Origin: Myxococcales bacterium
Lineage (GTDB): Bacteria > Myxococcota > Polyangia > Fen-1088
Reading direction: 5' to 3'
Length of the DNA: 9,629 bases
NCBI GenBank assembly: GCA_003153875.1
Contig: PMBY01000391.1
Coordinates: 1-9,629 of the forward strand
Below, one piece after another: positions 1-7,956 of this stretch. The notes under the pieces were generated by a model, which saw nothing but the letters and a program-made list of their open reading frames with translations, did not search any database and was not told where the DNA came from. A program made the translations under genes and the position numbers. Each line of letters begins with the position of its first letter. Within the stretch, counting starts at the first letter, position 1.

Positions 1-701
1 AATTCGTGGCGGTTCCGCAAGCCAACCTTTACCGTCTCCCTGACAACGTGGCCATGAAAGTCGTGCCCATGGTCGAGATGTACGGCCTGGGTCACCACGT
101 CCTTGAGCGCGGGCACGTGCAGCCGGGCGAGACAGTGGCGATCCTGGGCGCGGGCAAGCTGGGACTGTCGGTGCTCGACGTGCTCTGCCACAGTGCCGGC
201 GCCGCCTTCACCATTGTCTGCGACCAGGCCCCGTTTCGCCTGGATACTGCGCGCGCCCTGGGCGCGGATCAGGTGCTCGACATCCGCCATGACGACCCGG
301 TGGAACGCGTGCGCGAGCTGACCCAGGGCGTGGGCGTTGATTGCGTGATCGAATGTGTGGGACACGCCCACGAGATCCCCGGCCGCGAGCCGCCGCTGGC
401 CCAGGCCGTGAAGATGATCCGTCACGGCGGGCGCGTGGTCACGGCCGGCCTGGGCGACCAGCTCACGCCCGTGCACTTCAAGACCCTGGTGATGAAGGAA
501 GGCACAATCATCGCCACGCGCGTGACCGCCGGCGAGTTTCCGCGCGCGCTGCGCTTGCTGGCCAAAGGCCTGCTTCACCCCGAGCGGCTCATCACGCACG
601 AAATGCCCATGCAAGACGCGGCGGCGGCCTTCAAGTTGGTGGACAGCGAAAATCCCGGCGTGATCAAAGTCGTGCTCAACCAGATCCCGGTTAGTGCATG
701 A
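1..701 (+). CDS. Zinc-type alcohol/polyol dehydrogenase (MDR family), 5'-truncated by window edge
   Basis: C-terminal two thirds of a medium-chain dehydrogenase/reductase, a cytosolic NAD(P)-dependent oxidoreductase of alcohols or polyols. The frame is already open at base 3 (reads FVAVPQANLYRLPDN), matching the end of the catalytic domain, so the GTG at base 6 is not a convincing start and the gene begins outside the window. The nucleotide-binding Rossmann fold is clear: GAGKLG (GxGxxG) near residue 49 counted from that GTG, then an Asp in IVCDQ about 25 residues later, which usually favours NAD over NADP. RALGADQVLD and VDCVIECVG are further family landmarks. The Zn-ligand region lies upstream and cannot be seen. 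Sorbitol- or threonine-dehydrogenase-like proteins are the nearest type I recognise; the substrate cannot be told. The stop (699-701) overlaps the stop end of the converging GH8 gene by 11 bases. Confidence 0.9.
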   Translation, partial: FVAVPQANLYRLPDNVAMKVVPMVEMYGLGHHVLERGHVQPGETVAILGAGKLGLSVLDVLCHSAGAAFTIVCDQAPFRLDTARALGADQVLDIRHDDPVERVRELTQGVGVDCVIECVGHAHEIPGREPPLAQAVKMIRHGGRVVTAGLGDQLTPVHFKTLVMKEGTIIATRVTAGEFPRALRLLAKGLLHPERLITHEMPMQDAAAAFKLVDSENPGVIKVVLNQIPVSA

Positions 702-3021
702 AATTGCCGGTCATGATGAGCAGGGTCAGCATGCCGACGGTTGCGTTGTAGTACCCATACGTGGGCTGCGGGCTCCGGGACCCAGACTCGCCGTACCCGC
801 CGCCAACGTCGATCGAGGGAGCCATGGTTCCACGGGTAAGGATGTCGAAGACGGCCTGGTAGGCATCATTGAGGAAGGTCTGGTTGCCGCTGGCCATCGC
901 GCTCACTGCGGCCGTGCCAAGCATCGAGGCCGAGTTGGTGCCGCTGCCAGATACAGCGCCGCCACTTGGCGTGAACATGTCCACTAGGAAGCCAATTCCG
1001 TTCTGGGCCATGAGGGCAAAGTAAGCGGTCGTCTTTTTCGTGTAGGCCTTGGCTTCAGCCGCGGCGTTGAAGCAGTAATCCAAGCCAATGCGCATCGGGA
1101 GGCGGTGTGAGTCGTATTGGTAGTCAGGGTCAGTCGGCCAGCCATTGCTGCCTGGGGCCGTGCAGGTGGCGCTGCACCACGCAGGGATAAGTCCATTGCT
1201 GCCGGCGATGGTGCCGCCGATGACGCCATAAACTGCCGTGATGACGCCGGCCCAGTCATGGGCGCCATCTACCGCCGCGAAAGCCCGGTACGTGGCCGGA
1301 GCGAAGTACGAGGGGCTGGTGACCGCGTTCGCTGGGCTGCCGAAGCCGCTGCCTCCCTTGGGGAGCTTGGTGCCAGCGCTGTCGATGTCATTGGCCCAGA
1401 TGTCATTGATCATGGTCAGGGCGTCGGCTTTGTAGGTTCCACCCCAAGCCTTGTCCGCCATCAAGAGCGCGTAGGCCGCGTCCTCATCCGCGCCCGTGGC
1501 CGAGCCGCCGGAAGCGAGGCACGCTGTTCCCGCTCCGCCGCCGTCGGGTCGGCTGCCGGGAACACACCAAGTCATGAGCGACGTGGTTGACGCCGGGTGC
1601 TCCTTCCAGAAGCCATACAGGCCATCGAACAGATCCTGGTCATTCATGTTGACTGCGATGAGCATGCCGTACGCGATACCCTCGGAAATCGTGTCGTTCA
1701 GGTGATCCGGCCGAATGACCTTGTTGCCGCTGACGAAGGTGCTCTTCCATTGATTGTAGGCAGACACCAGGAATTTGGCGTCTGCACTCGGCCCTTGGGG
1801 CCTGATGCAACTGCCCACGCCACCAGGGTTGGCCAAAGGGAACCCAGGGCGCGTCTGCAATCCCGAGTCGTCCTTTATGAATTCGACATCATCGATCCAG
1901 AGATCATAGGTTCCAGGGATTGCTCCTGCGGGCTTGGGGAAACCCTCGTCCTGGTAGATCGAAACCTGGAAGGCGAGAACGTCACGCGGGTTGAACGCTG
2001 GCGCCTGGCACTTGGGCGTTCCACTAGCGAGACAGGCAGCCTCATAGGGGCCAGCCCACTGGGCCGGAACCCAACGCGGCACCAGAGTGCCGAAAGGCAC
2101 GGTAAAGGTCTGATAGCTGCTCGAGATCGCATTGGGGGTCCACGGCGGATTCAGCACTTGGCCTCGGTTGTTGTGGAGACCGGTGGCAACGTCAGCGCCT
2201 TGCTCCGAGCCAAGAAGCCCGCCTTGGGACGACGATGTTGTTTCCCGGGTCAGCATTTCGAAATAGACGGCTTGCTGAATGCCGCTGCCTGCTTTCATCT
2301 TGAATCTGATGCCCGTGTACATGCTGACGTCGTACGGGTTGAAAACCTGGCTCCCGGGGAGCTGGGGCAAGAAGCCGGCGCCGAACCCGACCGCGTTTTC
2401 GGGGCCGCGGGAGCCCGGTCTCGACCCGGGCGCGAAACCCGATCCCGTGGAGTGCAGCGCGTACTTGTTGCATGGGCTTGCATCCGGCGCTGGCTCAACA
2501 GCGATTGGGCCGCTGGAATTGAACGCGGGGGTCTGCATTTTGCCAGCGGCCATCGCCCCGGGCGAGCCCGGGTAGTACACGTACCACCAACCACTTCGCC
2601 GGGGGCTTCCTTGCGGGATCATGTCGCCTTGGCCCGACTCGAAGTCGGAGATCATGTCCGGTGCGACCGGGCAGGCGCTGCTGCCACCTGTGCCAGTTGA
2701 GACACCGCCGCTGCCTCCAGCGCTGGTGCCACCTGAGCTGCTAGTTGTTCCGCCTCCGCCGCCCGCGGTGCCACCGACGGGGACATCGGGCTCGCCGTAG
2801 TTGGCGTCCGCTACAACAGCGGCGTCGCCTTCACCGCTTCCGCTGGTGCCGGCGACAGAGGTGCCGCTCGAGCCTCCTGCCGAAGCAGCGGCGCCGTCCG
2901 CGCCACCCACGCTGGCGTCAGCCCCATGGCCCATCTTCAGCGGATGCCCACAGCCCACCGCAGTCGCCATGAGAGCCAGCAAGCCCAGTCTCACTGTTGC
3001 CACAACCAGTTGCCAACGCAT
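691..3021 (-). CDS. Lipoprotein glycoside hydrolase family 8 (CelA-like endoglucanase type) with N-terminal CBM-like domain
   Basis: Predicted surface or periplasmic lipoprotein acting on a beta-1,4-linked polysaccharide (cellulose-, xylan- or chitosan-like). I chose the ATG at 3019-3021 (776 aa) because it gives a compact signal, MRWQLVVATVRLGLLALMA, ending at lipobox-like TAVGC (Cys24); an upstream TTG at 3057 adds 12 residues with no signal character, and neither start has a strong RBS. Residues about 35-115 are a Gly/Ser/Thr tether. Residues about 118-385 look like a beta-sandwich carbohydrate-binding module, ending in YDLWIDDVEFI. The GH8 catalytic domain spans about 405-776. The general acid Glu447 lies in ISEGIAYGM and the general base Asp637 in YQYDSHRLPMRIGLDY. 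The GH8 signature is present as ATGADEDAAYALLMADKAW, but its first Asp is Gly (residue 510). The gene lies 74 bases downstream of the Cys-rich repeat gene on the same strand, so co-transcription is possible. Family call is firm; substrate and activity are not. Confidence 0.88.
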   Translation of the reverse strand: MRWQLVVATVRLGLLALMATAVGCGHPLKMGHGADASVGGADGAAASAGGSSGTSVAGTSGSGEGDAAVVADANYGEPDVPVGGTAGGGGGTTSSSGGTSAGGSGGVSTGTGGSSACPVAPDMISDFESGQGDMIPQGSPRRSGWWYVYYPGSPGAMAAGKMQTPAFNSSGPIAVEPAPDASPCNKYALHSTGSGFAPGSRPGSRGPENAVGFGAGFLPQLPGSQVFNPYDVSMYTGIRFKMKAGSGIQQAVYFEMLTRETTSSSQGGLLGSEQGADVATGLHNNRGQVLNPPWTPNAISSSYQTFTVPFGTLVPRWVPAQWAGPYEAACLASGTPKCQAPAFNPRDVLAFQVSIYQDEGFPKPAGAIPGTYDLWIDDVEFIKDDSGLQTRPGFPLANPGGVGSCIRPQGPSADAKFLVSAYNQWKSTFVSGNKVIRPDHLNDTISEGIAYGMLIAVNMNDQDLFDGLYGFWKEHPASTTSLMTWCVPGSRPDGGGAGTACLASGGSATGADEDAAYALLMADKAWGGTYKADALTMINDIWANDIDSAGTKLPKGGSGFGSPANAVTSPSYFAPATYRAFAAVDGAHDWAGVITAVYGVIGGTIAGSNGLIPAWCSATCTAPGSNGWPTDPDYQYDSHRLPMRIGLDYCFNAAAEAKAYTKKTTAYFALMAQNGIGFLVDMFTPSGGAVSGSGTNSASMLGTAAVSAMASGNQTFLNDAYQAVFDILTRGTMAPSIDVGGGYGESGSRSPQPTYGYYNATVGMLTLLIMTGNFMH
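2677..2919 (-). repeat. Low-complexity Gly/Ser/Thr tether of the GH8 lipoprotein
   Basis: Coding low-complexity stretch of about 80 residues dominated by Gly, Ser, Thr and Ala (GGSSGTSVAGTSGSGEG, then SSSGGTSAGGSGGVSTGTGG), lying between the acylated Cys and the CBM-like domain. It is probably a flexible stalk holding the enzyme away from the membrane. Its degenerate GGN/GCN/TCN codons make the opposite strand read as a spurious Arg/Pro/Ala-rich ORF. Confidence 0.75.
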
Positions 3022-3095
3022 TCCAGGACTATGGCACAGGTATTCTCGATATCGCAAACCCCGGGATCACCCACGCGCGCAGCCGAGCCAGTCCA

Positions 3096-4583
3096 TCACA
3101 AGGGAACGTAGATCATCATCTTGCACCAGGTCGTGCACATGCCATCCAGGCCGTTCCAGTCGCCGTCGTCGCATTCCTCCGGACCGTTGGCGATTCCGTC
3201 GCCGCAGTGGGGAGCCAGCTTGCATTGCGGGGTGCAGTCGCCGTACGAGCCGTCCAGAATTCCGTTGTCGCATTCCTCAGGTCCATTCTTGACGCCGTCG
3301 CCGCAGTGGGGAGCATAGATGCAGCTCGGGGCGCAGGCACCGTAGCCGCCGTTGTTGAGGAATACCCCGTCGTCGCATTGCTCGGGCGGCTCGATCTTGC
3401 CATCGCCGCAGCCACCGGGTTTGCGGCAGGCGTTGGTGCAATTGGGATCGTTCGACATGGTGGGTTCGCATTCTTCCCCGTAGTCCGACTGAACCACGCC
3501 GTCGCCGCACCTGGGCGCCAGGGTGCAGTCGGGATTGCAGGTTCCGTAGGTGCCGTCGTTGACGCTGTCGTCGCAAGCCTCCGTGCCATTCACGATGCCG
3601 TTGCCACAGTAGTCGCCAGGCGGGCAGTTTGGCAGGCAGCGATGGGGGGCCTGCTGGCAGGTCTTGCCCGGCACTGGGCAGACCCACCCGGGTTCGAGGT
3701 GACAACTGCTGCTGCAACCATCGCCGCTTTGGCTGTTGCCATCGTCGCACTGTTCGCCCGGTTCGATGCGCTTGTTGCCACACTGGGAGATGCGGGTGCA
3801 GGGTTGTCCGGCGATACACTTGTAGGCGGGGTCCTGAACCGTACAGGTGGAATTGCAGCCGTCATTGTCGAGAGTGTTGCCGTCGTCGCAAACCTCGCCC
3901 GGCCCAATGAGGCTGTCGCCGCAGACGACTCTTCGCGTGCAAGCTCCGGCCGGGGGACAAACCCAATTGGGTTCGACCCTGCAAAGGCCGTCGCACCCGT
4001 CGCCGGGCAGCACGTTCCCGTCGTCGCACTGCTCGATGCCATTCTGATTGTTGATTCCATCGCCGCAGCCCTCTGGCACCAGGGCCTTGCAGCCAGCGGT
4101 GCTCTCGATGTTGCACACCTTGGTTGCGCCACCGGCCCCGCCGGTTCCCCCGGCCCCGCCTACGCCAGCCGTGCCGCCCGCGCCACCCGATGCCGTCCCG
4201 CCCCTGGTTGCGGTAGCGCCGGCAGTTCCGGACGCAGTTCCGCCAGTGCCCGCCGTCGCACCCGCGCCACCGGATATTCCACCGGCTCCCCCGGTTCCAC
4301 CTCCGCCTCCCGTCGCAGTTCCACCAGAGCCGCCGGTGCCGCCGGACGTCGTCCCGCTATTGCCGCCCGCACTCGTCGCGCCGCCGGCTCCGCTGCCAGC
4401 CGAGCTTTGGCTGCCCGCTGATCCGCCGCTGCCGCCAAGAATACCGCCCGTACTCGCTGACCCGTCTGCCCCCACGGCTCCGTCGTAAAGGCTCGTGATA
4501 CCGGACTTCCCGCAACCGGCACCGGCAAAGACAATGGCACCAGCTAGCGCGAGGAAGAGTTGAAAAGTCCAGAATGGCCGCAT
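3096..4583 (-). CDS. Lipoprotein with eight Myxococcus-type Cys-rich (DUF4215-like) repeats
   Basis: Predicted exported lipoprotein of 495 aa. Start ATG at 4581-4583 is fixed by a strong RBS GGAGGT (4587-4592) three bases upstream. The signal MRPFWTFQLFLALAGAIVFA leads to GAGC with acylatable Cys24. Residues 40-155 are a Gly/Ala/Thr/Ser tether. From Cys173 to the C-terminus there are eight Cys-rich repeats beginning at Cys173, 221, 268, 326, 359, 392, 427 and 460. Repeats 1-3 are long (47-58 residue spacing), of the type CGDxxIxPGEQCDDGNxxxGDGCxxxC followed by WVCP-like segments. Repeats 4-8 are short (33-35 residues), of the type CGDGxxNGPEECDDG...YGxCxPxC..APH. These match the myxobacterial disulfide repeat/DUF4215 family known from exported proteins. 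The molecular role of that family is unknown to me; the many paired Cys imply disulfides formed outside the cytoplasm. It precedes the GH8 gene on the same strand. Adhesion or structural display is inference only. Confidence 0.88.
   Translation of the reverse strand: MRPFWTFQLFLALAGAIVFAGAGCGKSGITSLYDGAVGADGSASTGGILGGSGGSAGSQSSAGSGAGGATSAGGNSGTTSGGTGGSGGTATGGGGGTGGAGGISGGAGATAGTGGTASGTAGATATRGGTASGGAGGTAGVGGAGGTGGAGGATKVCNIESTAGCKALVPEGCGDGINNQNGIEQCDDGNVLPGDGCDGLCRVEPNWVCPPAGACTRRVVCGDSLIGPGEVCDDGNTLDNDGCNSTCTVQDPAYKCIAGQPCTRISQCGNKRIEPGEQCDDGNSQSGDGCSSSCHLEPGWVCPVPGKTCQQAPHRCLPNCPPGDYCGNGIVNGTEACDDSVNDGTYGTCNPDCTLAPRCGDGVVQSDYGEECEPTMSNDPNCTNACRKPGGCGDGKIEPPEQCDDGVFLNNGGYGACAPSCIYAPHCGDGVKNGPEECDNGILDGSYGDCTPQCKLAPHCGDGIANGPEECDDGDWNGLDGMCTTWCKMMIYVPL
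3123..4067 (-). repeat. Eight tandem Cys-rich repeats within the 3096-4583 gene
   Basis: Protein-level tandem array in two subtypes: three long units (about 48 residues) then five short units (about 33 residues). The short units stay similar in DNA, for example the + strand string gccgtcgccgcagtggggag recurs at the ends of units 7 and 8. This suggests that the C-terminal part grew by recent unit duplication, while the first three units are older. Confidence 0.8.
4119..4466 (-). repeat. Gly/Ala/Thr-rich tether of the Cys-rich repeat lipoprotein
   Basis: About 116 codons made almost only of Gly, Ala, Thr and Ser (for example GGAGGTAGVGGAGGTGGAGG), the longest of the three Gly-rich tethers here. 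It separates the lipid anchor from the Cys-rich head. The pattern is a degenerate GG[T/A/S] triplet rather than an exact DNA tandem repeat. Confidence 0.75.
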
Positions 4584-4737: not shown

Positions 4738-5817
4738 CTAGGAACAGTACGCCACTTGGCATTGGCCGGCGACGCATGTGAAGTGTGCGCAGCCGGCGCT
4801 GCCGTTTGCGCATATTTCACAGAGCGTAGGCAAGGCGCCGGTGCAGTCGGTTGCCTTGCTGCAGCTGGTGGTCGAAGTGTCAGGCACGCACTTGCACAGG
4901 GTGCTGTCGAAGTGGTCCCCCTTTATGCACAAGACATTGTCTAGGCATGCGGCGTCGACCGGCGGCTTTGCTCCTGCGTCTTGATCGGGCACACAGCGCC
5001 CCGATACCTGGGGATCGCATCCCTGCCCGCAAGTCAGCGACGATGCGCAGCCGAGCGCGGGATTGTGGCACGCAAACCCTGCTCCGCCGCCCGGCTCTTT
5101 GCAGCCGTACAGCGAGAACCCATTTGGACAGCAGGCAAGCCCCACGTCGGGACTCGCCAGGCCAGCGTCAGGATTCGGCGGACAGATGGGACAGCCACAA
5201 GGCTCAGGACTCGGCAGGAACCCGGTCACACAAAGCAGCGCCGGGCAATTGAATTGCGGACAGATGGACGCGTCCTTCTTTCCAGCGTCCGTCACCGTTC
5301 CACCGTCGACCGGAGTACAACTGGTGCATCCGCAGGGCGGAGAATTGAACTCATACCCCGCGGGACAGGTATTGGGCGGTGGGGCGCAGGGGGGCACGGG
5401 CCCAGGACAGATCGGGGCGTCTCGGCCGGCGGCGTCCTTTGTCGCGCCAGCGTCAGGATTCGGCGGACAGATGGCACAGCCGCAGGGATCGGGGTTCGGC
5501 CGGAACCCACCCACGCAAGCGAGCGCGGGGCACGCTGTCGGGAGGCAGGCGCTCGTTCCACCGGCGCCGGCGGTTCCATTCGTCCCGCCAGCACTGACTC
5601 CACCCGAGCCGATGCCGCCCGAGCTGCCGGCCACAATGCCACCAACGCCGACTGTACCAGCCGATCCACCGGCCACGCCGCCGGTCTGGCCTCCGCTCGT
5701 CACGCCTCCAGCACCGCCGGTTCCCCCGCCCGGGTTCAGGCCGGCCTGGTTGACACAGGCTAGGCCCAGCAGACCAGCTGCGAGAAGGGCTGCGACGCCC
5801 ATTGACATCTTGAGCAT
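4738..5817 (-). CDS. Lipoprotein with antistasin-like Cys-rich modules
   Basis: Predicted exported lipoprotein of 359 aa. Start ATG at 5815-5817 is supported by RBS GGAGGA (5822-5827) four bases upstream. The signal MLKMSMGVAALLAAGLLGLAC gives an acylatable Cys21. Residues 28-89 are a Gly-rich tether. The head carries six Cys-rich segments: about 91-117, 137-167, 187-212, 229-275, 291-310 and 319-358. Segments 1-3 share the pattern C...C..G[FY]....PCGCxxCxP, which resembles antistasin-like domains; segments 1 and 3 are near copies (CPALACVGGFRPNPDPCGC versus CPALLCVTGFLPSPEPCGC). Spacers between them are Asp/Ala/Pro/Gly-rich (PPNPDAG). Antistasin-like domains in animals often inhibit serine proteases, but in bacteria the role is not established, and I do not infer inhibition. 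Disulfide formation outside the cytoplasm is likely from the high Cys content. Function unknown; surface location is the main supportable claim. Confidence 0.85.
   Translation of the reverse strand: MLKMSMGVAALLAAGLLGLACVNQAGLNPGGGTGGAGGVTSGGQTGGVAGGSAGTVGVGGIVAGSSGGIGSGGVSAGGTNGTAGAGGTSACLPTACPALACVGGFRPNPDPCGCAICPPNPDAGATKDAAGRDAPICPGPVPPCAPPPNTCPAGYEFNSPPCGCTSCTPVDGGTVTDAGKKDASICPQFNCPALLCVTGFLPSPEPCGCPICPPNPDAGLASPDVGLACCPNGFSLYGCKEPGGGAGFACHNPALGCASSLTCGQGCDPQVSGRCVPDQDAGAKPPVDAACLDNVLCIKGDHFDSTLCKCVPDTSTTSCSKATDCTGALPTLCEICANGSAGCAHFTCVAGQCQVAYCS
5161..5247 (-). repeat. Direct repeat copy A (encodes antistasin-like module 3)
   Basis: About 87 bases that recur in frame at 5446-5532, 285 bases (95 codons) away. 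The first 29 bases are identical between copies and roughly four fifths of the whole matches by eye. This copy encodes the module with CPALLCVTGF and PCGCPIC. It points to duplication of a module plus spacer inside the gene. Confidence 0.75.
5446..5532 (-). repeat. Direct repeat copy B (encodes antistasin-like module 1)
   Basis: Partner of the repeat at 5161-5247. It encodes CPALACVGGF and PCGCAIC followed by the same PPNPDAG spacer. The middle module (residues 137-167) is more diverged, so an alternating two-module unit may have been duplicated. Confidence 0.75.
5551..5736 (-). repeat. Gly-rich tether of the antistasin-like lipoprotein
   Basis: About 62 codons rich in Gly, Ala, Ser, Thr and Val (GGTGGAGGVTSGGQTGG and similar) directly after the lipid anchor. 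It has the same architecture as the two downstream lipoproteins. Confidence 0.72.
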
Positions 5818-6117: not shown

Positions 6118-7929
6118 TTAGAGGTCGAACGTCACGCCGGCAAACCAAGTGCTGTCGCCGACGTGCAACATCTTGCCAAAACCCAGTCCGTTGATCGCGG
6201 CGTAGTCCCATTCGAAGAACAGGGCGCAGGGGTCGGCCAACGCTCCCGGGTTGAGGGTGCCCATACCGAGGAAGTTCAGGCCGAGCGCCAGGCCCGCGGC
6301 CGTGTGCCACCCCGGTGTGAACCCACTGTGGGAAGCGCTGCCTCCCGTGCCGCTGGTTGTCCACACCACTCCGTCCAGCCCGGCCTTGAGGTACGGGATG
6401 AGCGGCACCTGCTTTAGGCCCGGAATTCGATCGGCTTTGTACACCAGCGACAGCGCAAAGGGGATGAGGCGCAGCGCGGTCTCGTCCCCGCTGCGGGTTT
6501 TCCCGTCGGCCAGAAAGGCCACGCCGGTCACGCTGTAGTAGCCGCCGCGCAGGCCCACGCCCCAGGTTCCGAAACGGTGGTACACGTACCGGTCGACCTC
6601 AATCTCCGACAGAAGATGGCGGCTGGACCCGAAGGTCTCGCCAAAGGGATGGTTCCCGTTGCTGAACTCGCTGTCCACGGCCGGGCGATAGAGCGACACC
6701 CCGATCTCAAAGCCCCAATCGGGGATTTGTGGCAGCGGCGATACCGGCGATTGCGAGGGCCAGTCGGCGGCTTGGTGATCGACCGCGATCTGCGCTGAAG
6801 CGGTCGCGCTGAACGCGAGCACAAATAGAATTGCGCGTGTCGCGCTGGCGCCAGCGGTTCCCCGGCGCCCCCTGCGTCGTGGGCTGCGGCCCAACGCGAC
6901 GACCAGGGCGGCGACCAGCGCCATCCAGAGCAGACCCGCCCGATCCGAGTGCGGCAACAGCGTGCAGCCGCTGGCCGCCCCGCCGTCTTGTTGGTACTTC
7001 TGGAGAAATCCAATGGTCTGCTGGGGCGTCGCCGTGGCCTGCGACAAAGGCGCGCTCACGCCGCCACTCGCATCTATCGAGATCACTGCGACCGTGTAGG
7101 ACTTGTCATTGTCCAGTCCGGCCAGACGAACCGAGGTCTTGCTGGCGGAAACCTCGGCCGAGCAGACCTGGGTCAGGTCAGACGGGGTCAGGACCGCGCT
7201 GCCGATGGCGATACTGTCCAGCCCGCAAGTTTCGTAGGCGGCTGTGGATGCCTGAGCCGGACTGGGCAGGCACAGCACCTGGTACCCGGCGACCTGAGAG
7301 GTGTCGGCCGGAGGAGTCCAGCTGACGAGCAGACCGTGGTTCGAGGGCAGGGCTTTGACGTCGGTGGGAGCCGAGACCACGGTCGCGACCACCGGAAGCT
7401 GTAGCGGGAGCGCGAAGGGGAGCACGGTTCCGTCCTGGGCGAGAACCGCCCACAGGGTGGTCGACCCAGGGGTCAATTTCCCGCAGTCCACGGTTGCGCT
7501 GCCTGCCGCCGACTGGAACACCTGGCTGCTGTCGAAGGTTGACTGGGCCGCCTGGGACGCGGTCAGGGCGATCTGGTTGCCGACCGACACGCACGAAGCA
7601 GACGAGGCAGAGCTGGAGCAGTCTGCGCCCAGGTAGAAACTGACCGTGATCGTCGAGCTGCCTATGTCGGTTTGCCCGGCCGAGGTCATCTGCACTACGG
7701 CTGTGATGGTGTCAGGACAAAGACACCGATGACGGTTGAAGAAACCGCTCGAGTCGAGCGCGCCCGACGAACTCCCGACAGAGCCGTAGGCAGCGAGAGC
7801 GAAGTCGCTCTCGGTCAATGCCGCGGCTTGAGCCCCGGCTGGCGTCCAGGCCAGGGCGGCCGCCAGCGCCGGGGCGAGGCGACCACCCAGGCATCTGGCG
7901 TGCAGGCGAAGGGGCTTCATGGCCGCCAT
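6118..7929 (-). CDS. Fused MYXO-CTERM-type FN3 surface protein and outer-membrane beta-barrel (MXAN_2561/MXAN_2562-like)
   Basis: One open frame of 603 aa from ATG 7927-7929. Alternatives are GTG 7956 and ATG 7920; all have weak RBSs, and the signal APALAAALAWTPAGAQA is retained by each. Residues about 35-185 form an exported domain with HRCLCP and several Cys. Residues about 187-301 are a fibronectin type III domain (PTDVKALPSNHGLLVSWTPP ... SYTVAVISID). Then come Cys322 (GAASGC), a hydrophobic segment (332-346) and an Arg cluster (RSPRRRGRRG, 348-357), the layout of a MYXO-CTERM tail where such proteins normally end. Here the frame continues into a second signal-like segment, TRAILFVLAFSATASA|Q (364-380), and about 220 residues rich in alternating aromatic/hydrophobic strands, resembling the MXAN_2562 outer-membrane barrel family. 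From memory these are two adjacent genes in Myxococcus. No ATG lies at the junction; an in-frame TTG (6892-6894) could start the second part. Function unknown. Confidence 0.8.
   Translation of the reverse strand: MAAMKPLRLHARCLGGRLAPALAAALAWTPAGAQAAALTESDFALAAYGSVGSSSGALDSSGFFNRHRCLCPDTITAVVQMTSAGQTDIGSSTITVSFYLGADCSSSASSASCVSVGNQIALTASQAAQSTFDSSQVFQSAAGSATVDCGKLTPGSTTLWAVLAQDGTVLPFALPLQLPVVATVVSAPTDVKALPSNHGLLVSWTPPADTSQVAGYQVLCLPSPAQASTAAYETCGLDSIAIGSAVLTPSDLTQVCSAEVSASKTSVRLAGLDNDKSYTVAVISIDASGGVSAPLSQATATPQQTIGFLQKYQQDGGAASGCTLLPHSDRAGLLWMALVAALVVALGRSPRRRGRRGTAGASATRAILFVLAFSATASAQIAVDHQAADWPSQSPVSPLPQIPDWGFEIGVSLYRPAVDSEFSNGNHPFGETFGSSRHLLSEIEVDRYVYHRFGTWGVGLRGGYYSVTGVAFLADGKTRSGDETALRLIPFALSLVYKADRIPGLKQVPLIPYLKAGLDGVVWTTSGTGGSASHSGFTPGWHTAAGLALGLNFLGMGTLNPGALADPCALFFEWDYAAINGLGFGKMLHVGDSTWFAGVTFDL
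6787..6966 (-). other. Fusion junction: Cys-TM-Arg tail joined to a second signal sequence
   Basis: Sixty codons holding, in order, the Cys of the anchor motif, a transmembrane segment (6892-6936), six Arg in ten codons, a hydrophobic signal core (about 6800-6832) and a signal-peptidase-like ATASA|QI site. There is no stop codon and no ATG between the two halves. The positive-inside rule places the Arg loop in the cytoplasm, with both flanking domains outside. Confidence 0.7.
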
Positions 7930-7956
7930 TATCCACGATACCGCCACCCTAGCCAC

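Follow-up and report, generated by a model that had tools for sequence, protein, structure and literature searches.

Architecture of the reading frame

The DNA analyzed here (the window) is a 9,629-nucleotide stretch from a Myxococcales bacterium, and it carries an unusually composed open reading frame. We asked whether this frame is a genuine union of two envelope protein genes and, if so, what would become of its product. The original prediction described a single stop-free frame with an exported fibronectin type III (FN3) part, a Cys-TM-Arg tail, a second signal-like sequence and a barrel. This layout was confirmed on the minus strand, as shown in Table 1; the plus strand of the same interval is interrupted by stops.

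Table 1. Features of the fused reading frame in the window
Feature	Position	Strand	Basis or remark
Fused ORF, N-half surface protein plus barrel	6118..7956	minus	612 codons/aa, GTG start
N-terminal Sec signal peptide, about residues 13-46 from the ATG at residue 13	7819..7920	minus	sequence, boundaries by eye
Beta-strand-rich domain of N half, residues 47-194	7375..7818	minus	alignment and fold model
Fibronectin type III domain, residues 195-303	7048..7374	minus	PF00041, 29.8 bits, cut-off 25
Cys331, MYXO-CTERM-like cysteine	6964..6966	minus	invariant, 113/113 fused proteins
First membrane helix, residues 340-356, MYXO-CTERM-like	6889..6939	minus	sequence and fold model
Arg-rich loop, residues 357-368, predicted cytoplasmic	6853..6888	minus	alignment, charge count
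Internal signal peptide, residues 374-388, ending A386-S-A388 / Q389	6793..6837	minus	predicted signal peptidase I site
Eight-stranded outer-membrane beta-barrel, residues 414-612, MXAN_2562 family	6121..6717	minus	NF040596 and barrel-only model

In-frame ATGs occur at residues 10 and 13. In the fold model of the fused protein, residues 1-27, 37-42 and 383-406 had pLDDT <50, and helices were predicted at 340-356 and 369-382. The second hydrophobic segment ends in SATASA, followed by Q, at residue 388/389. Cysteines C78, C80, C113, C122 and C158 of the beta-strand-rich domain are invariant in the alignment of fused proteins. When the whole model was submitted to Foldseek, the best 50 matches listed were mostly tandem FN3 chains; the barrel was therefore modelled alone, and the eight predicted strands agree with the outer-membrane beta-barrel fold of an MXAN_2562-type half. 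No PDB sequence was matched in a profile search with the barrel.

Family membership of the two halves

The barrel half matched NF040596, the model of the MXAN_2562 family, at 150.1 bits over residues 414-611 (curated cut-off 100). NCBI types this model as a subfamily domain and names one fused relative (P0036) 'MXAN_2562 family outer membrane beta-barrel protein'. Of 289 genomes of the class, 269 contained a match that exceeded the cut-off of this model, compared with none of 14 control genomes. The N half lies directly before the MXAN_2562 barrel, which is the position of the MXAN_2561 family, and scored 56.9 bits on that family's model, NF045522 (curated cut-off 150). None of 235 genomes of the phylum reached this cut-off, and the model was found below it in 175 of them. 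The HMM searches originally proposed assigned the barrel to its family but left the N half below the cut-off and the MYXO-CTERM models unmatched.

The barrels of four other loci (L225, L227, L228 and L219) gave a weak match to the Bd0486 family (NF053801, 24-47 bits, cut-off 370), and a wider kinship of the two barrel families is possible.

The junction is genuine

The original prediction cautioned that a stop lost through sequencing error had to be excluded. A homologue search of 5.8 billion proteins returned 132 relatives; the 120 listed are 48-94% identical and mostly of fused length, and one on another contig (P0001) shares 94% identity over 99% of the fused protein. We aligned the window protein with 112 of these 120, which share 49-94% identity with it, omitting 8 shorter or odd ones, and all 113 rows cross the junction. 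Both halves lie in one frame in 7/7 searched genomes of the nearest genus, including one (G002) in which a TAG was seen at first and a 606-codon frame still holds both halves. Moreover, genome G014 contains a copy of each kind, L009 being fused and L069 separate; this speaks against the idea that assembly style produced the fusion. One relative, L093 of genome G021, does resemble a lost-stop case, with an in-frame junction that lacks the Cys-TM-Arg hairpin, but the conservation of the junction and the coexistence of both forms in G014 leave this explanation a negligible probability in the window. On the strength of P0001, the 113-row alignment and the seven genomes, we rejected sequencing or assembly error there.

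We also dropped L093 as a true fusion. Its gene 1 is apparently frame-shifted, the N half being in the barrel frame and the tail not, and its barrel has a normal-looking ATG.

Fused and separate forms across the phylum

A survey of relatives for split and fused forms had been suggested, and both exist across the phylum. We classified 176 loci from 164 genomes plus the window, a sample that was not random and in which the window's family is over-represented; 70 were chosen by high-scoring N halves and 106 by barrel or whole protein. The two halves were separate in 100 loci and in one frame in 71 (70 fusions and the artefact L093), while in 3 loci a barrel lacked a recognized N half and in 2 no barrel was recognized. 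Of those 3, L010 and L092 lie at the ends of their contigs and L074 lies within a long one. An automatic hairpin rule passed 66 of the 71 same-frame loci; L146, L149, L171 and L207 were kept by eye. One-frame loci were commoner among those picked by N half (39/70) than among those picked by barrel or whole protein (32/106). Both halves occurred together in 171 of 176 loci, and in 103 of the 106 picked by barrel or whole protein.

Fusions were found in 19 of the 43 families sampled (20 if L093 is counted), and a family belonging to another class had fusions at all 16 of its examined loci. A set of 80 named loci, which partly repeats genomes already in the 176-locus count, comprised 65 separate, 13 fused and 2 without a recognized N half. 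All named loci of Myxococcus, Corallococcus, Pyxidicoccus and the Sorangium isolates were separate; in Myxococcus dinghuensis, for example, the halves are adjacent genes overlapping by four bases. Adjacent, overlapping genes in neighboring lineages support the view that the window frame is a fusion of an MXAN_2561/MXAN_2562-type pair. The fusion is thus real, as first proposed, but not peculiar to this genome: it is genus-wide in the seven genomes searched and recurs across the phylum.

One locus, L303 (BNCN01000003.1), is titled 'Comamonas sp. KCTC 72670' and carries a Myxococcus-type separate pair; that genome may be mislabelled or mixed.

Among the 100 separate pairs, the barrel frame relative to gene 1 was +1 in 92, the same frame behind a stop in 5, and other in 3. 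In 85 of the 92 +1-frame pairs the barrel start codon overlaps the gene 1 stop by four bases (53 ATGA, 31 GTGA, 1 TTGA), and 77 of these 85 have a Shine-Dalgarno match of at least 4 bases just upstream of the barrel start. The separate pairs are coupled. Gene 1 of the separate relatives ends in a similar TM-Arg tail, mostly with the Cys, and gene 2 begins with a similar signal peptide. Given the four-base overlap, a small frame change near it would suffice to fuse the genes. We infer that the separate state is the older, because fission, if it had occurred repeatedly, would be unlikely to produce the four-base overlap every time; the barrel tree is unrooted and fits either direction, fusion or fission.

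That tree was built from 172 of the 176 loci (2 without a barrel and 2 of fewer than 130 residues were left out), or 171 after L093 was dropped. The fused or separate label required 16 changes on the 171-barrel tree, with at least 7 changes forced by starred branches, compared with an average of 54 for shuffled labels. Placing all fused forms in one clade was rejected (p 1.6e-47, quick tree). In the window's own clade, 9/9 classified rows were fused, and the tenth, L010, is cut by its contig end.

Predicted processing of the fused product

How might such a chain be handled by the cell? Residues 356-374, between the helices, carry a mean of 6.5 Lys plus Arg against 0.17 Asp plus Glu across the 113 proteins. 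Positively charged loops lie on the cytoplasmic side of membranes (the positive-inside rule), and a strongly basic loop fits this location. The second hydrophobic segment occupies the position of the N-terminal signal peptide in separate barrel genes and has the hydrophobic core and AxA of a signal peptidase I substrate. A hydrophobic run followed by AxA was present in 64 of 70 fused loci, the other 6 failing the strict AxA rule, and in 79 of 92 separate +1-frame loci. In the fused proteins C331 (113/113), A386 (105/113), A388 (108/113) and Q389 (110/113) are conserved, and the linker is otherwise variable. Conservation of the cut site beyond the needs of an anchor suggests cleavage, and a conserved cutting site at the second signal-like sequence makes a processed polyprotein likelier than one finished fused protein. 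The AxA/Q conservation could partly be inherited from the separate gene.

The Gln at +1 of the predicted cut (6790-6792) resembles the 'Q-rule' of Bacteroidetes, as far as the accessible part of the source describes it; the phylum differs.

Taken together, these features make it reasonably probable that the ORF encodes a membrane-threaded polyprotein, derived from the fusion of two genes that in their separate form mostly overlap by four bases, whose hairpin would be cut by signal peptidase I and probably also by myxosortase. The N half would be exported by Sec until the Cys-TM-Arg segment stops transfer, with the Arg loop on the cytoplasmic side. Export would resume at the second hydrophobic segment; without this re-export the barrel, which follows the first helix, would stay in the cytoplasm. 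Cleavage at A388/Q389 by signal peptidase I would release the barrel, which could then insert into the outer membrane, and cleavage near C331 by myxosortase would leave the FN3 protein lipid-anchored at the outer surface, with a small hairpin left over. The two products would act as a 1:1 pair of surface protein and outer-membrane barrel, on the TraA/TraB plan discussed below.

A chain that stays whole is quite improbable. Such a product would form a helical hairpin in the inner membrane, with the N half periplasmic and the barrel in the outer membrane; the single ORF fits it, and the poorly ordered linker at 383-406 could bridge part of the periplasm. However, a mere anchor needs none of A386, A388 and Q389, and in separate relatives the barrel is a protein of its own.

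The barrel could also be made independently from an internal start codon, the fusion then being incidental, which we regard as very improbable. Upstream of the second helix, the window has no ATG, GTG or TTG with a Shine-Dalgarno match of at least 4 bases, so the barrel is most likely made only within the chain. An ATG at residue 345 falls within the first helix. At residue 355 the frame has a TTG, which lies 34 codons ahead of the predicted cut; its ribosome-site match is three bases long, and the Arg residues after it would be appropriate for a signal peptide. Of 98 aligned proteins only 51 have Leu at this position, so this TTG cannot be generally kept; internal initiation there is unlikely. 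Among the 71 same-frame loci, a match of at least 4 bases accompanied a well-placed ATG in 4 and any start codon (GTG and TTG included) in 17, with the cut site placed by a simple rule that misplaced it in a few rows; the window and 53 other loci had no start codon with such a match.

The myxosortase half of the processing model is the weaker one, because the MYXO-CTERM models miss the window tail. The tail had been called MYXO-CTERM-type, and its position, cysteine, helix and Arg cluster do correspond, in the order Cys, TM helix, Arg cluster (Arg360 in 90 and Arg361 in 94 of 112 proteins), but neither TIGR03901 nor TIGR03382 matched it. MYXO-CTERM tags are C-terminal, whereas more than 240 residues follow the tag in the window. 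One other tail of the same (A) copy was likewise unmatched, and a tail of the genus's other (B) copy matched TIGR03901 weakly (13.5 bits, cut-off 20). The tails of four separate relatives varied as well: two exceeded the cut-off of 20 (23.4 and 30.2), one was unmatched, and one, from Myxococcus, scored 19.7 on TIGR03901 and 19.3 on TIGR03382, above the latter's cut-off of 15.85. Of 18 relatives, 16 have a protein whose myxosortase core scores over cut-off. The nearest relative is among them, as are 6 of 7 genomes of the nearest genus; the exception in that genus was G002, whose genome is 76% complete.

These results bear on a half-processed product, in which the barrel is released by signal peptidase I but the N half, an FN3 protein facing the periplasm, stays in the inner membrane by its Cys-TM-Arg helix. 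The unmatched models point that way, as do 7 of the 66 fused loci accepted by the hairpin rule, in which no Cys precedes the hairpin; these indicate that the myxosortase step is not universal. In contrast, the Cys is invariant in the close fused homologues and the enzyme core is present in most relatives, and we consider the half-processed outcome unlikely for the window. Myxosortase cleavage of the window protein thus appears likely from its sequence, though less sure than the signal peptidase cut.

We noted a sub-group with a TM-Arg tail and no Cys before the helix, both fused (L083, L084, L085, L111, L179, L180, L181) and, as judged by eye, separate (L112, L138, L139). Without the Cys, this tail is unfit as a MYXO-CTERM tag, and the gene 1 product of this sub-group may stay in the inner membrane.

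Paralogues and gene neighborhood

Each of the seven genomes of the nearest genus has two fused paralogues. An RNase R gene is close to the window copy, an arrangement shared with G001 and G006, and the other copy in G006 adjoins truA, as do pairs in loci of other classes; the window copy looks like a relocated duplicate. In a neighborhood survey of 20 longer loci plus the window, truA recurred most often as a neighbor: its cluster was present in 6 of 21 loci, and Pfam confirmed the assignment in 4. As truA is a housekeeping gene, this says little about function.

The other paralogue of G006 (L225, G006:C43) lies near truA, an acyltransferase and a CDP-alcohol phosphatidyltransferase, and clusters of the latter two recur in two more genomes of its family. 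The window also encodes, on the minus strand, a Cys-rich protein at 3096-4583 with a Gly/Ser-rich, lipoprotein-like start, 7 myxo_disulf_rpt stretches (TIGR02232, 167.5 bits) and DUF4215 repeats. The protein at 691-3057 (minus) is lipoprotein-like; it contains a domain of glycosyl hydrolase family 8 (138.7 bits) and weakly resembles the periplasmic endoglucanase BcsZ (58.5 bits, cut-off 299). The protein at 4738-5817 (minus) is Cys/Pro-rich, Gly-rich and lipoprotein-like, with no Pfam or NCBIfam match at E 1.

Comparison with known systems

Few bacterial polyproteins are known to be cut at an internal signal peptide. The FbcH cytochrome b/c1 precursor of Bradyrhizobium is one; it yields inner-membrane respiratory proteins and has no sorting tag, unlike the putative polyprotein of the window. 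Literature searches on bacterial polyproteins cut by signal peptidase, FbcH included, found nothing on point, and in the open-licence literature we found no publication on the MXAN_2562 family or its recurrent fusion.

One close counterpart is the MXAN_2561/MXAN_2562 pair, with homologous halves in the same order, a similar Cys-TM-Arg tail and the same barrel family. It differs in being two genes rather than one, and the window N half falls short of the cut-off of the MXAN_2561 model.

A similar gene layout is found in TraA/TraB, the outer-membrane exchange system. In the accessible part of the report (PMC3325183), the traA and traB ORFs of M. xanthus overlap by four bases and encode a MYXO-CTERM surface protein followed by its envelope partner; TraA has a PA14 domain and Cys-rich repeats, and TraB an OmpA domain. 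The order of surface-protein gene and envelope-partner gene, with the same overlap, is that of 85 of our 100 separate relatives. In contrast, TraA and TraB are not fused, and the Pfam scan found no OmpA peptidoglycan-binding domain on the barrel partner in the window.

Near-constant pairing, four-base overlap and repeated fusion suggest that the barrel and its surface partner belong together. Pairing and overlap likewise support the earlier suggestion that the two products may work together. On these sequence comparisons, the chances are about even that Myxococcota have repeatedly turned a coupled envelope pair into a doubly threaded polyprotein cut by two proteases, giving an exact 1:1 ratio, and that the pair forms a phylum-wide, TraAB-like surface complex. 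A little-studied barrel and its surface partner would thereby become a phylum-wide envelope pair with a directly testable role, and the occurrence of fused and separate forms within one family makes processing, stoichiometry and partnership testable by comparison.

A published architectural precedent is MXAN_5598, so that the idea is already in print for another protein. The accessible part of that report (PMC11980579) calls internal MYXO-CTERM motifs rare and describes MXAN_5598, in which such a motif is followed by a barrel and an OmpA domain, as a likely fusion. MXAN_5598 differs from the window protein in its large adhesin region and OmpA domains, and no signal peptidase cut is proposed in that part of the text; the window frame, in contrast, belongs to a conserved family in which fusion is recurrent.
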